Under the pieces are notes generated by a model that searched no databases, was not told the origin of the DNA, and was given only the letters and a program-made list of their open reading frames with translations. From Clostridia bacterium (GTDB lineage: Bacteria > Bacillota_A > Clostridia > Oscillospirales > CAG-272): a stretch of DNA of 24,983 nucleotides. Shown here piece by piece: positions 15,687 to 19,643 of this stretch. The stretch is from assembly GCA_017452945.1 (NCBI GenBank), contig JAFTLD010000011.1, positions 1-24,983 of the forward strand, in the 5' to 3' direction. Position 1 is the stretch's first letter, and every line of letters starts with the position of its first letter. Both the position numbers and the translations under genes were made by a program.

Positions 15687-17753
15687 ATGAATCAACAAAC
15701 TGATCCCAAGTACCAAGCGCTGTTTACGCCTTGGAAGATCGGCAACGTCGAGATCAAAAACCGCATTGTGATGTGTCCCATGGGCGGCACGTCGCTGTTC
15801 GGTTGGTTTGAGCTGACAGGCTGCCACTTCGACAAGGAAGCAGCAAAGCTGTTTTTGGAAAGAGCCAACAACAACGTCGGTCTGATCATTCCCGGTATTG
15901 CGCCCGTTCGTGATACCTTCTGGGGAAAGTACCTCTGGCAGAATCCCAAGATGTTTGAGGATCTCAAGGAATTTATGGAGGAGATCCACAAGTCGGGGGC
16001 TAAGCTGTTCATCCAGCTGACCGCAGGCATGGGACGCTCCTGGGCGATCACCGATCTTGTAGCACCCTTGCACAAGAACAAGCTGACGCGCACGCTGATC
16101 AAGCCTATTCTGGATACCAATCATGAGCTTGCCAGCCCCAGCCCCCAGCCGTCGAGATGGGCGCACGATATCATTTGCCCCGAGATCACGGTTGAGCAGA
16201 TCCATGAGATCATCGAGGCCTTTGCCAAGACCGCAAAGCTTTGCAAACAAGCCGGTGTGGACGGTGTGGAGGTACACGCAGTGCACGAGGGCTATTTGCT
16301 GGATCAGTTCTCTATGGAATTCTTCAATAAGCGTACCGACGAATACGGCGGCAGCTTTGAGAACCGTTATCGCTTCGCAGCCGAGATCGTCAAGGCCATC
16401 AAGGAAAAGTGCGGTGCGGATTATCCCGTTTCGCTGCGTTACTCGGTTGAGTCCAAGATGAAGGGCTTTTGCGAGGGTGCTATGCCGGGCGAGGACTACG
16501 TAGAGGTAGGCCGCAGTATGGAAGAGAGCGAAAAGGCAGTCAAGTTCCTGCAGGATGCGGGCTACGATATGCTCAATGCGGACAACGGCACTTATGACTC
16601 CTGGTACTGGGCGCATCCGCCGATGTACATGCCCGAAAACTGCAATCTGGACGACGTGGCGCACATCAAGCAGTTTGTGGACATTCCCGTGGTATGTGCG
16701 GGTCGTATGGATCCCGAGGTGGGTGCTAAGGCTATTGCCGAGGGCAGAATCGACGGTATGGGCGTGGCACGCCAGTTCTTGGTGGATCCCGAATGGGTGA
16801 CCAAGCTGATTGAGGACAGACTTGAGGATATCAAGCCCTGTATCTGCTGCCATGCGGGCTGCTTTAACTTCTCGCGCTCCAAGGGACATGCAAACACGCA
16901 GGATCTGACCGATACTATGGGGCTTTCCCGTTGCGCGCTCAATCCCGAGACCATGCAATCCAAAAAGTATCACATCGAGCCTGCCAAGAAGCAGAAAAAG
17001 ATCGCTGTCATCGGCGGCGGTATCGGCGGTATGGAGGCTGCAATCGTGTGTGCAAAGCGCGGCCACAAGGTCACGCTGTATGAAAAGAGTGACAAGCTGG
17101 GCGGTGTGTTCATCGCAGCAGCTGCGCCCTCGTTTAAGGAAAAGGATCGCGATCTGATCGCGTGGTATGTCCGTGAGATGACTAAGCATCCCATCCAGGT
17201 CAAGTTCAACACCGAGGTCAAGGACGTCAAAGCACTCGATGCCGACGAGGTCATCGTAGCAACCGGTGCTGTGGCAAAGAAGATCCCGATTCCGGGCGTG
17301 GAGCGTTCGATCGAAGCTGTCGACTTCCTGCTTGGCAACAAGACGGTGGGCGACAAGGTAGTCGTCATCGGCGGTGGCTTGACCGGCTGTGAGATTGCGT
17401 ATGAGCTGTATCTGCAGGGCAAAAAGCCCACCATTGTGGAAATGCAGGACGATTTGATCACCACCAAGGGCATCTGCCTTGCAAACACCTCTTACCTGCG
17501 TGACTTCTTCAAGACCAACAAGGTGCCTGTGCATCTGGAAACAGGTGTGAGCGAGATTACCGACAAGGGCGTTGTAATCAAGCGCAAGGACGGCTCCACC
17601 GAGCAGATCGAGGCAGACTCTGTCATTCTGTCGGTTGGTTATAATCCCGCACCCGTGGCAACTAAGGGCGTACACGTGATTGGTGACGCCAAGGCTGTGG
17701 GCAATCTGCGCACCGTTATCTGGGGAGCGTGGGACGTGGCAATGAAGCTCTGA
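15687..17753 (+). CDS. NADH:flavin oxidoreductase, 2-enoate reductase type
   Basis: A 688-residue flavoenzyme with the domain plan of 2-enoate reductase, FldZ, BaiCD and 2,4-dienoyl-CoA reductase. Residues 1-375 form an Old-Yellow-Enzyme barrel with FMN, with HAVHEGYLLDQF (197-208) and NKRTDEYGGSFENR (214-227). A [4Fe-4S] site follows with Cys 385, 388, 392 and 416; the last gap is 23 residues, longer than the 11-12 usual, and Cys 387 is an extra one. Residues 437-688 form an FAD/NAD(P)H module with GGGIGGME and GGGLTGCE. Such enzymes reduce the C=C bond of alpha,beta-unsaturated acids or their CoA esters in anaerobes. GGAG at 15674-15677 sets the start. It is followed, across a hairpin array, by a two-subunit aconitase X. 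Confidence 0.92.
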   Translation: MNQQTDPKYQALFTPWKIGNVEIKNRIVMCPMGGTSLFGWFELTGCHFDKEAAKLFLERANNNVGLIIPGIAPVRDTFWGKYLWQNPKMFEDLKEFMEEIHKSGAKLFIQLTAGMGRSWAITDLVAPLHKNKLTRTLIKPILDTNHELASPSPQPSRWAHDIICPEITVEQIHEIIEAFAKTAKLCKQAGVDGVEVHAVHEGYLLDQFSMEFFNKRTDEYGGSFENRYRFAAEIVKAIKEKCGADYPVSLRYSVESKMKGFCEGAMPGEDYVEVGRSMEESEKAVKFLQDAGYDMLNADNGTYDSWYWAHPPMYMPENCNLDDVAHIKQFVDIPVVCAGRMDPEVGAKAIAEGRIDGMGVARQFLVDPEWVTKLIEDRLEDIKPCICCHAGCFNFSRSKGHANTQDLTDTMGLSRCALNPETMQSKKYHIEPAKKQKKIAVIGGGIGGMEAAIVCAKRGHKVTLYEKSDKLGGVFIAAAAPSFKEKDRDLIAWYVREMTKHPIQVKFNTEVKDVKALDADEVIVATGAVAKKIPIPGVERSIEAVDFLLGNKTVGDKVVVIGGGLTGCEIAYELYLQGKKPTIVEMQDDLITTKGICLANTSYLRDFFKTNKVPVHLETGVSEITDKGVVIKRKDGSTEQIEADSVILSVGYNPAPVATKGVHVIGDAKAVGNLRTVIWGAWDVAMKL

Positions 17754-17766
17754 TGAGCTTCATTGC
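17739..17766 (+). repeat. Perfect hairpin containing the reductase stop codon
   Basis: GCAATGAAGCTC (17739-17750) and GAGCTTCATTGC (17755-17766) form a 12-bp perfect stem with loop TGAT. The left arm encodes the last four residues, and the TGA stop lies in the loop. Confidence 0.9.
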
Positions 17767-17857
17767 AGTGATATTGCCGCTGTGCGGCAGTGATATTCGT
17801 GCTTCGCACGAGTGATATTTGCGCTGCGCGCAAGTGATATGTTCGCCTTTGGCGAAC
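17767..17857 (+). repeat. 22-nt period array of variable hairpins
   Basis: The nine-base linker AGTGATATT starts at 17767, 17789 and 17811, and AGTGATAT starts at 17833, an exact 22-base period. Between them lie different five-bp hairpins: GCCGC-TGT-GCGGC, CGTGC-TTC-GCACG and TGCGC-TGC-GCGCA. The fourth linker is followed by a larger one, GTTCGCC-TTT-GGCGAAC. No T-run follows, so these are not terminators. The array fills the gap between the reductase and aconitase X genes. Confidence 0.92.
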
Positions 17858-17866
17858 GTTGTGGTA

Positions 17867-17892
17867 GAAATTCTTCGCATGCGAAGAATTTC
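17867..17892 (+). repeat. 26-bp perfect palindrome upstream of the aconitase X start
   Basis: The left arm is GAAATTCTTCGCA and the right arm is its exact reverse complement. It ends 16 bases before the GGAAAGGA ribosome binding site, so as RNA it would be a stem just ahead of the translation start. Confidence 0.85.
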
Positions 17893-17925
17893 AATTGAAT
17901 TGTAATGGAAAGGATAAAAACGTCT

Positions 17926-19203
17926 ATGATACTGACAAAAGAACAACAGGCAATTCTGGACGGTGCACAGGGCGAGACCATGGCCAAGGTCATGAAAACG
18001 CTGGTCCTGTACGGTGACGCATTCGAGGCTGAAAAGCTGGTGCCCATCACGTCCAAGTATAACCATCTCGTGACCTCGTTCGGCCTGAAGGTCATGTCCC
18101 CCGTGTACGATCTGATGCAGCAACTGCTGGATGCAGGCGTGGTTTCGGATCAGAAATTCTCGGTTGACCCCAGACCGCTTGATAAGAACGTACCGGCCAA
18201 CGTGCTGCAGAATTTTGTGTTCAATAAATTCATGTACACCAAGCAGGATTTCTATGAGGATCAGCTGCACAAGCTGGGTCTGATGGATGACGATGCATTC
18301 TCCTGCACCTGCTATATGGATGAGGTTGGCAATAAACCGAAGAAGGGCGACGTGCTCTCTTGGGCAGAGTCCTCGGCTGTTGTATACGCGAACTCCGTAT
18401 TGGGCGCAAGATGCAACCGTAACTCGGGTATTATCGACATTATGGGCTCTATCGTGGGTTACGTGCCTTACTTTGGCCTTTTGACCGATGAAGGCAGAAA
18501 AGCTACCTGGGTGATCAAGGTGCAGACCACCAAAAAGCCCGAAGCGCAGCTGCTTGGTTCGGCTATCGGCATGAAGGTCATGGAGGACGTGCCTTACGTT
18601 GTCGGCCTTGATCGCTGGATCGGTACAGAGCTTGACGATGCTGCATGCTCTTACCTCAAGGACTTTGGAGCAGCTACCGCCTCCAACGGTGCGGTTGGTC
18701 TTTACCATATCGCAAACCTGACGCCCGAGGCCAAGGAGTTGGGCGAATCCTTGATCGTAGAGGGTGCGCGTGAGTATATCATCGATGATGCTGAGCTGCA
18801 GCGCGTACAGGACAATTATCCTGTGATGTGGAAGAATGCAGATGCAACTCCCAAGCTTTGCTTTGTGGGTTGTCCGCACCTTTCTCTGGAGCAGCTTAAA
18901 ACATGGACGGATAACATTGAAGCAGCACTTGCAAAGAACGGCAAGAAGAAGGTGGTTATCCCCACCGTGCTGACTGCGGCTCCCGCTGTGCTGGAAAAGT
19001 TCAATAAGACCGAGTACGCTGCAAGACTCAAGGCCACAGGCGTGATCACGTCCTATATTTGTCCTTTGATGTACATGAACAATCCGCTTTGCAAAAAAAT
19101 GCCCGTTATCACCTCGTCCAACAAGCTGCGTACCTACACCAGCTCAAGATATTACAAGGATGAGGAGATCTTACAGGCTATTACGGGAGGTAAAAAGGCA
19201 TGA
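17926..19203 (+). CDS. Aconitase X catalytic (large) subunit
   Basis: A protein of the AcnX family (formerly DUF521), 425 residues from the ATG at 17926. The start is placed there because the family begins (M)xLTKEEQAILDG and GGAAAGGA (17907-17914) is well spaced; an in-frame ATG at 17905 lies before the site. Conserved blocks are YGDAFEAEKLVPI, WAESSAVVYANSVLGARCN (146-164) and VGCPHLSLEQL (314-324), where Cys and polar residues hold the Fe-S or metal centre in characterised members. Known members dehydrate cis-3-hydroxy-L-proline (bacteria) or mevalonate 5-phosphate (archaea). The substrate here is unknown. The gene overlaps the small-subunit gene by four bases (ATGA), so the two are made together. 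Confidence 0.88.
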   Translation: MILTKEQQAILDGAQGETMAKVMKTLVLYGDAFEAEKLVPITSKYNHLVTSFGLKVMSPVYDLMQQLLDAGVVSDQKFSVDPRPLDKNVPANVLQNFVFNKFMYTKQDFYEDQLHKLGLMDDDAFSCTCYMDEVGNKPKKGDVLSWAESSAVVYANSVLGARCNRNSGIIDIMGSIVGYVPYFGLLTDEGRKATWVIKVQTTKKPEAQLLGSAIGMKVMEDVPYVVGLDRWIGTELDDAACSYLKDFGAATASNGAVGLYHIANLTPEAKELGESLIVEGAREYIIDDAELQRVQDNYPVMWKNADATPKLCFVGCPHLSLEQLKTWTDNIEAALAKNGKKKVVIPTVLTAAPAVLEKFNKTEYAARLKATGVITSYICPLMYMNNPLCKKMPVITSSNKLRTYTSSRYYKDEEILQAITGGKKA

Positions 19204-19643
19204 GAGAATTCAAGGGTAGAGTCGTAACCCCCGGACAGGTCACGGCAGAGGCGCTTGTGACCACGCAGGGATTCAATACGCTGGCATCCTTCCAGATGGC
19301 GCTGCAGTTCGGCGACAAGGAAGTCAAATGCGGTGACCAGAATAACACCGATCTGCATGGCAAGAGCATGCTTGGCAAGGCTCTTTGTCTGCCGCAGACC
19401 ATTGGTTCAACCACGGGTGGTTTGGTACTGTATTGCGCATGTGCGATGCACAAGCAGCCTGCTTGCATGCTGTTCGCCAATCACATTGATTCGTTGGCAG
19501 CCGCCGGCGCGGTGCTTGCCGACGTTTGGGTTGAGGGTGTAAGCATGCCCGTTGTGGATTGCCTTGGCGATGAATTTTTGGAGTACGTCAAGGATGGCAT
19601 GAGCGTTACTGTGAAGCCAGACGGTGTAGTTGTGGTGGAATAA
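19200..19643 (+). CDS. Aconitase X swivel (small) subunit
   Basis: The AcnX small subunit (formerly DUF126), 147 residues, equivalent to the swivelling domain of aconitases. The central motif NTDLHGKSMLGKALCLPQ is followed by GSTTGGLVL, which corresponds to the family's R-G-S-S-x-G-S active-site loop (the usual Arg is replaced: QTIGST), and by PVVD near residue 117. In many bacteria the two domains are fused; here they are separate, as in archaea. It starts in an ATGA overlap with the large subunit and is followed by a strong terminator. Confidence 0.87.
   Translation: MREFKGRVVTPGQVTAEALVTTQGFNTLASFQMALQFGDKEVKCGDQNNTDLHGKSMLGKALCLPQTIGSTTGGLVLYCACAMHKQPACMLFANHIDSLAAAGAVLADVWVEGVSMPVVDCLGDEFLEYVKDGMSVTVKPDGVVVVE

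Follow-up and report, generated by a model that had tools for sequence, protein, structure and literature searches.

A Gut-1 hairpin array behind an oxidoreductase gene in a Clostridia bacterium as a probable mobile palindromic DNA element

The window, that is, the whole stretch of 24,983 nucleotides analysed here, carries on its plus strand a gene for a FAD-dependent oxidoreductase of 688 aa (15687..17753), an open reading frame named after its homologues, which were 84-93% identical among the 120 matches listed. All nine homologues compared share the C-terminal end GAW(D/N)(V/A)(A/C)(M/T)K(L/I). The last codons of the gene, GCA ATG AAG CTC, together with its stop codon TGA, make up the left arm and some of the loop of a plus-strand hairpin (hairpin 0, 17739..17766). 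Its stem is perfect over 12 bp, its loop of 4 nt, TGAT, includes the stop codon, and its right arm repeats the coding end in inverted form. Behind it, AGTGATAT starts at 17767, 17789, 17811 and 17833, in steps of exactly 22 nt. The first-pass annotation had reported these regular linkers, and indeed none are expected by shuffling: the window has three occurrences of the paired AGTGATAT pattern, and 100 shuffles gave 0. It had also described the 13-mers between the linkers as 5-bp stems with 3-nt loops. Three of them are perfect hairpins by eye and by folding, but the two letters that adjoin the cores at either side of each hairpin are also paired (T-A in 258, G-C in 16 and A-T in 2 of 279 distinct units, with 3 unpaired), so the stems are really 6 bp long. 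Likewise, AGTGATAT does recur as the linker, but the invariant unit is only the 7-nt core GTGATAT.

On the plus strand, the array therefore reads as core 1 (17768..17774), hairpin 1 (T GCCGC-TGT-GCGGC A, 17775..17789), core 2 (17790..17796), hairpin 2 (T CGTGC-TTC-GCACG A, with a GAA loop on the opposite strand, 17797..17811), core 3 (17812..17818), hairpin 3 (T TGCGC-TGC-GCGCA A, with a GCA loop on the opposite strand, 17819..17833), core 4 (17834..17840) and a last hairpin, hairpin 4 (GTTCGCC-TTT-GGCGAAC, 17841..17857), in which G-C replaces T-A beside the core. The array closes on its right with GTTGTGG (17858..17864, +), a core in truncated or variant form. With overlapping loci left unmerged, 69 arrays have a perfect hairpin behind their last core, and in 55 of them GTT or GTG comes next. 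Between the array and the next gene lies a perfect palindrome, GAAATTCTTCGCATGCGAAGAATTTC (17867..17892, either strand), which need not belong to the family and is absent from the orthologous gap of a relative, G004. Both perfect hairpins flanking the array were thus as the first-pass annotation had given them. The large part of aconitase X follows on the plus strand (17926..19203), probably starting at ATG 17926 instead of at 17905 as the open reading frame call gave it, judging by eye from where orthologous sequences begin. An AcnX swivel domain was found in the next gene, the small part (19200-19643), which fits the name aconitase X that the annotation had proposed for the large part. The region 17739-17892 folds far better than shuffled sequence both as RNA (z -7.2) and as DNA of the opposite strand (z -10.1), with 0 of 200 shuffles as good in either case.

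The annotation had found no named element with such a plan. However, the array passes the gathering score of the Rfam family Gut-1 (RF01706; 56.7 bits, gathering 50) at 17766..17845 (+) over the whole model (1-77), and it belongs to this family. Gut-1 was presented in 2010 as a candidate noncoding RNA that occurs in human gut samples only and is not cis-regulatory, and the available text of that report states no function for it (PMC2864571). Rfam lists RF01706 as 'Gene; sRNA'. A literature search on the accession, or on Gut-1 together with Rfam, returned this paper only, and no title naming such hairpin arrays was among the matches listed. The arrays described here share with Gut-1 RNA the tandem short hairpins joined by GUGAAAU/GUGAUAU linkers. 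Unlike the published human-gut noncoding RNA, they are genomic and dispersed, they also occur in composites and in places adjoin stop codons, and many are from ruminant-gut MAGs (by title). Their range goes beyond the human gut of 2010, with arrays in MAGs titled goat, deer, cattle, sheep, yak and buffalo and Gut-1 matches above the cut-off in loci of ruminant MAGs (e.g. L005 and L030).

The arms of the hairpins had been noticed to change together, and this was borne out by the pairing statistics of the distinct units. With shuffled partners as the expectation, Watson-Crick pairs were found at pair 2 in 252 of 279 units (77 expected), at pair 3 in 252 of 279 (73 expected), at pair 4 in 230 of 274 (74 expected), at pair 5 in 232 of 267 (81 expected) and at pair 6 in 168 of 186 (91 expected). 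Perfect hairpins make up 166 of 240 distinct segments from AGTGATATT to the next AGTGATAT, against 166 of 24,000 single-letter shuffles, and these unit and segment counts are not independent events because related genomes and a few chance matches are pooled in them. All four base-pair types are used in the stems. The sequence of the stem is free, and its palindromy is mostly kept, which supports the annotation's proposal of either selection for the fold or a copying process that restores palindromes. Long arrays of one Clostridia genome, G002 (L174, L175, L177, L178 and L183), also contain a second core, GCTAAAT, in alternation with GTGATAT; 15 of the 22 segments of this second core are perfect hairpins, with the same loop bias as in GTGATAT arrays.

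The annotation had further suggested that related genomes be searched for the paired linker, and arrays were found in many relatives. A scan of species genomes returned at least 117 stretches, most of them titled Clostridia, Clostridiales or Oscillospiraceae; many are from the ruminant gut, and some are clear chance matches in unrelated species. Core pairs were present in 15 of 15 genomes examined, with 2 to 89 per genome in 13, and the reversed control pattern gave 0 in all 15. Both strands carry core pairs in 12 of those 13 genomes and a single strand in one; G002 has 89 (36 + 53 by strand), and the few in Psychrobacter (2) and Streptococcus agalactiae (1) look like chance. Gut-1 matches numbered 12-23 per genome in four of four genomes of the genus of G003 (E up to 0.001), and one of 14 control genomes (E. 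coli) gave a match, with 0 of 14 over the cut-off. Three-core arrays occur in 8 of 12 genomes of the genus of G004. Most genomes used are draft MAGs, and the loci compared are a chosen subset of the matches listed.

Two further homes of the family were considered and rejected. Among 120 listed viral stretches, two successive perfect hairpins between cores were found in seven and were lacking in 113, which does not make the array a phage element. The viral-collection contigs with hairpin arrays among the matches listed were L222, L230, L258, L294, L297, L313 and L322, and in viral arrays the outer pairs adjacent to the core are C-G, A-T, T-A and G-C. Akkermansia was considered as a second home. 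In the genus of G010, one genome out of 40, other than G010 itself, has the three-core pattern; two-core matches number 4 in G010 and 7 in G011, and wide presence in the genus of G010 is unsupported with the GTGATAT core. A few similar arrays were seen in MAGs titled Akkermansia or Akkermansiaceae and in one more genome of that genus (L003, L015, L401 and L402).

The genome of G004 contains six copies of a 228-229-bp composite that are 97.8-99.1% identical, carry arrays in both orientations and lie between unrelated flanks without any similarity. Because these near-identical copies sit in unrelated places, the family spreads, as the annotation had suspected when it named a spreading element among its options. 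The ends of the copies form an imperfect terminal inverted repeat, AAATTNNGRTTTANCG (12/16 by eye). Inspection of the six copies by eye showed no consistent target-site duplication, with a 3-bp match at one of them, and the joined flanks of one copy matched, in sister genomes, a neighbouring gene end or a terminator alone, the junction never being spanned. G002 contains long composites in which inverted arrays surround a different tandem palindrome. This palindrome of about 100 bp, AAACGCCC...GGGCGTTTT, lies in several copies between the inverted arrays (L171, about 1100-1550; L172, about 1560-1890). Some composite arrays start directly after a terminator-like hairpin with a T-run (L005, L009, L030 and L133), as though this stood in for hairpin 0.

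Comparison of the same gene gap in relatives showed the array to be present at some loci and absent from others. Close homologues of the oxidoreductase (85-86%) were found at four loci in three genomes of one genus, and in all four an aconitase X-like sequence lies 3' of the oxidoreductase (by eye). The gap in G004 has an array of four units after hairpin 0, one of which is an imperfect palindrome, and every stem differs from those of the window. One locus of G022 has a 20-nt gap without an array, and the other G022 locus and G023 have a different sequence without the core. The presence or absence of the array at this one gap is a gain or a loss. Whether or not an array follows, the end of the oxidoreductase is conserved, both in the nine homologues and at the four gap loci; therefore, the coding sequence that forms the left arm of hairpin 0 is old, and it was the right arm that arrived with the array. 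Correspondingly, the window reads GCA ATG AAG CTC TGA with the right arm GAGCTTCATTGC, and G004 reads GCG ATG AAG CTG TAA with the right arm AGCTTCATCGC, its stop codon spanning loop and arm, so that the synonymous codon difference between the two is mirrored in the right arm. In 19 arrays, the first core is at most 45 nt away from a stop codon on the same strand; hairpin 0 extends 12-16 nt into the coding sequence in five of them (behind three different upstream genes), begins at the stop in two and does neither in 12.

A right arm that copies the end of a host gene is what would be expected if arrays were written in place by a repair or reverse-transcription machine that alternates fold-back synthesis of the 3' end with addition of GTGATAT. 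Such writing would also yield hairpins that differ from one another, changes of whole units and a 7-nt word as the only constant. However, the expected pattern of hairpin 0 was seen at only three upstream genes, and we regard this origin as doubtful.

A second gap shows how the hairpins change in place. The arrays of G018 and G021, identical to each other, were compared with that of a sister species, G019, at a gap whose downstream gene we take by eye to encode ketol-acid reductoisomerase. Hairpins 0 and 1 are identical, hairpin 2 is swapped as a whole (TGCGCAAGCGCA to TCACCTTCGGTGA), hairpin 3 has a pair added on both sides and a changed loop, and hairpin 4 differs in its loop only. Between these species, both arms thus change together, and the cores stay.

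These observations bear on the proposal of 2010 that Gut-1 is a stand-alone noncoding RNA gene, whose hairpins would act in an expressed small RNA. The Rfam type and the strong covariation of the stems agree with it, as do three weak minus-strand promoter-like sites (9/12 matches; 0.4 expected) at 17899-17953, directed toward the array, from which an antisense transcript of the array may arise. However, a scan of 17600-18000 gave no plus-strand promoter-like site and 0 terminator-like sites (GC-rich stem with a T-run), genomes hold many copies of which some are nearly identical, stems differ or are partly replaced between orthologous arrays, and the array can be absent from the same gap. The tetraloops, discussed below, likewise lack the preference of RNA loops. 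Taken together, a noncoding RNA gene is an improbable account of the family. The scan also agrees with the annotation that the array is not a terminator; nor is it a CRISPR, for which the sole hint was a 21-bit match (cut-off 37 bits) at 17888-17921, outside the array.

We next considered the orientation of arrays relative to genes, using a sample of chosen loci from the listed matches. Where a stand-alone array outside G002 has called genes of the same direction on both sides, its orientation follows the transcript in 17 cases and opposes it in two (p 0.0007), or in 15 and two with orthologues merged (p 0.002). The corresponding ratio in G002 is even, at 6 to 7. Both ratios leave aside 75 inverted or composite arrays, those between convergent (6) or divergent (5) genes and those lacking a called gene on both sides. 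An earlier pooled count of all single-strand arrays with composition-based gene calls gave 12 same to 7 opposite, and a crude longest-ORF count, in which an antisense ORF was taken for the reductase, gave 13 same to 3 opposite. The bias outside G002 would fit either a role in the mRNA or an insertion coupled to replication or transcription.

A role in mRNA stability between the reductase and aconitase X, as the annotation had considered, is possible, with the orientation bias for it and the array-free relative against it. The array could have been kept as an mRNA element, with hairpins after the stop codon protecting the upstream message or tuning the second gene and with spread as a secondary matter. 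In addition to the transcript orientation, this would suit the several arrays that fill most of an intercistronic gap, the stop codon inside hairpin 0 in 7 of the 19 arrays near a stop and the position kept between sister species. On the other hand, the same operon in a relative has a 20-nt gap without the array and two more loci have other sequence there, composites occur in both orientations, and insertion coupled to replication could itself give the orientation. A simple reading from the sense strand is also opposed by the weak minus-strand promoter-like sites that adjoin the array downstream. We consider maintenance as an mRNA element to be unlikely.

The loops are polar and point to the other strand. 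On the strand reading GTGATAT, the loop is closed by C in 140 of 159 perfect hairpins, and among the 130 C-closed loops of 3 or 4 nt, 77 are T..C and two are G..A. RNA GNRA loops need a purine at position 3, and the tetraloops read on the G..A strand have one in 20 of 42 cases, which is no preference. On the strand reading ATATCAC, the 77 loops take the form C(GNA)G or C(GNNA)G, and loops of this kind make DNA minihairpins very stable, according to the available text of PMC4686876. Short of proof, this polarity argues for DNA in single-stranded form, namely the strand with ATATCAC.

We consider it probable, on balance, that the Gut-1 array is a mobile palindromic DNA element, mainly of Clostridia, that is transcribed between cistrons, instead of or in addition to being a noncoding RNA gene. 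Copies would move in trans by means of an enzyme recognising single-stranded core and hairpin DNA, which would act on the strand reading ATATCAC with its loops of the stable GNA/GNNA type. Intrastrand template switching or conversion at replication may maintain the pairing of the hairpins, possibly with a contribution from selection. The window array would have settled right after the stop codon of the reductase, in transcript orientation; a read-through mRNA would then carry six tandem hairpins (17739-17892), which may shield the upstream message and loosen its coupling to aconitase X, presumably with a mild effect on the bicistronic mRNA. Against a mobile element, a mobilising transposase was not found in 21 Y1 loci and 12 genomes, and the orientation with genes could be due to selection at the RNA level.

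If the array is a mobile DNA element, one family filed as structured RNA needs to be filed anew, and covariation alone would prove RNA function less strongly than has been assumed, since palindromes may also be restored in the DNA. Moreover, the replacement of hairpins unit by unit and the hairpins made from coding ends would render the origin and upkeep of palindromes in bacteria directly testable.

Among known systems, the arrays resemble REP elements and BIMEs of the GTAG and CGTC families, which are extragenic palindromes downstream of genes and often form inverted pairs, as the available text of PMC3733652 describes. Movement as a REP element by a REP-associated (RAYT/Y1) transposase would account for these shared traits. 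However, the unpaired word beside the palindromes is the linker GTGATAT in place of a GTAG or CGTC tag (the absence of these tags from all 341 units is true by construction, units being defined by the exact core), and the stems have no fixed sequence. In addition, REPs flank a RAYT/Y1 gene, and none was seen beside the arrays here: none of the Y1 transposase loci compared (21 loci of 1.6-3.4 kb, from draft genomes) contains the core GTGATAT, three have one variant core word each, and 3 of 12 draft genomes lack a Y1 match. This mode of movement is thus very unlikely, in agreement with the annotation, which had excluded REP. A lone GTAG is present at 17864-17867, past the array.

With MITEs, the family shares short, noncoding, dispersed and near-identical copies and an imperfect terminal inverted repeat, a likeness that was seen in the six G004 copies. 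In contrast to MITEs, there is no consistent target duplication, no parent transposon was found in the genomes compared, and the body consists of hairpin arrays. STAXI motifs are also tandem structured units, for which the 2010 authors considered a role as single-stranded DNA possible (available text of PMC2864571); they are pseudoknots near DNA-handling genes, whereas the arrays here are simple hairpins. In G002, a second REP-like family, GGGGACAGG...CCTGTCCCC, surrounds a Y1 transposase gene (L198, 1120-2718; L088, 1100-3630; L184) and adjoins some of the hairpin arrays.
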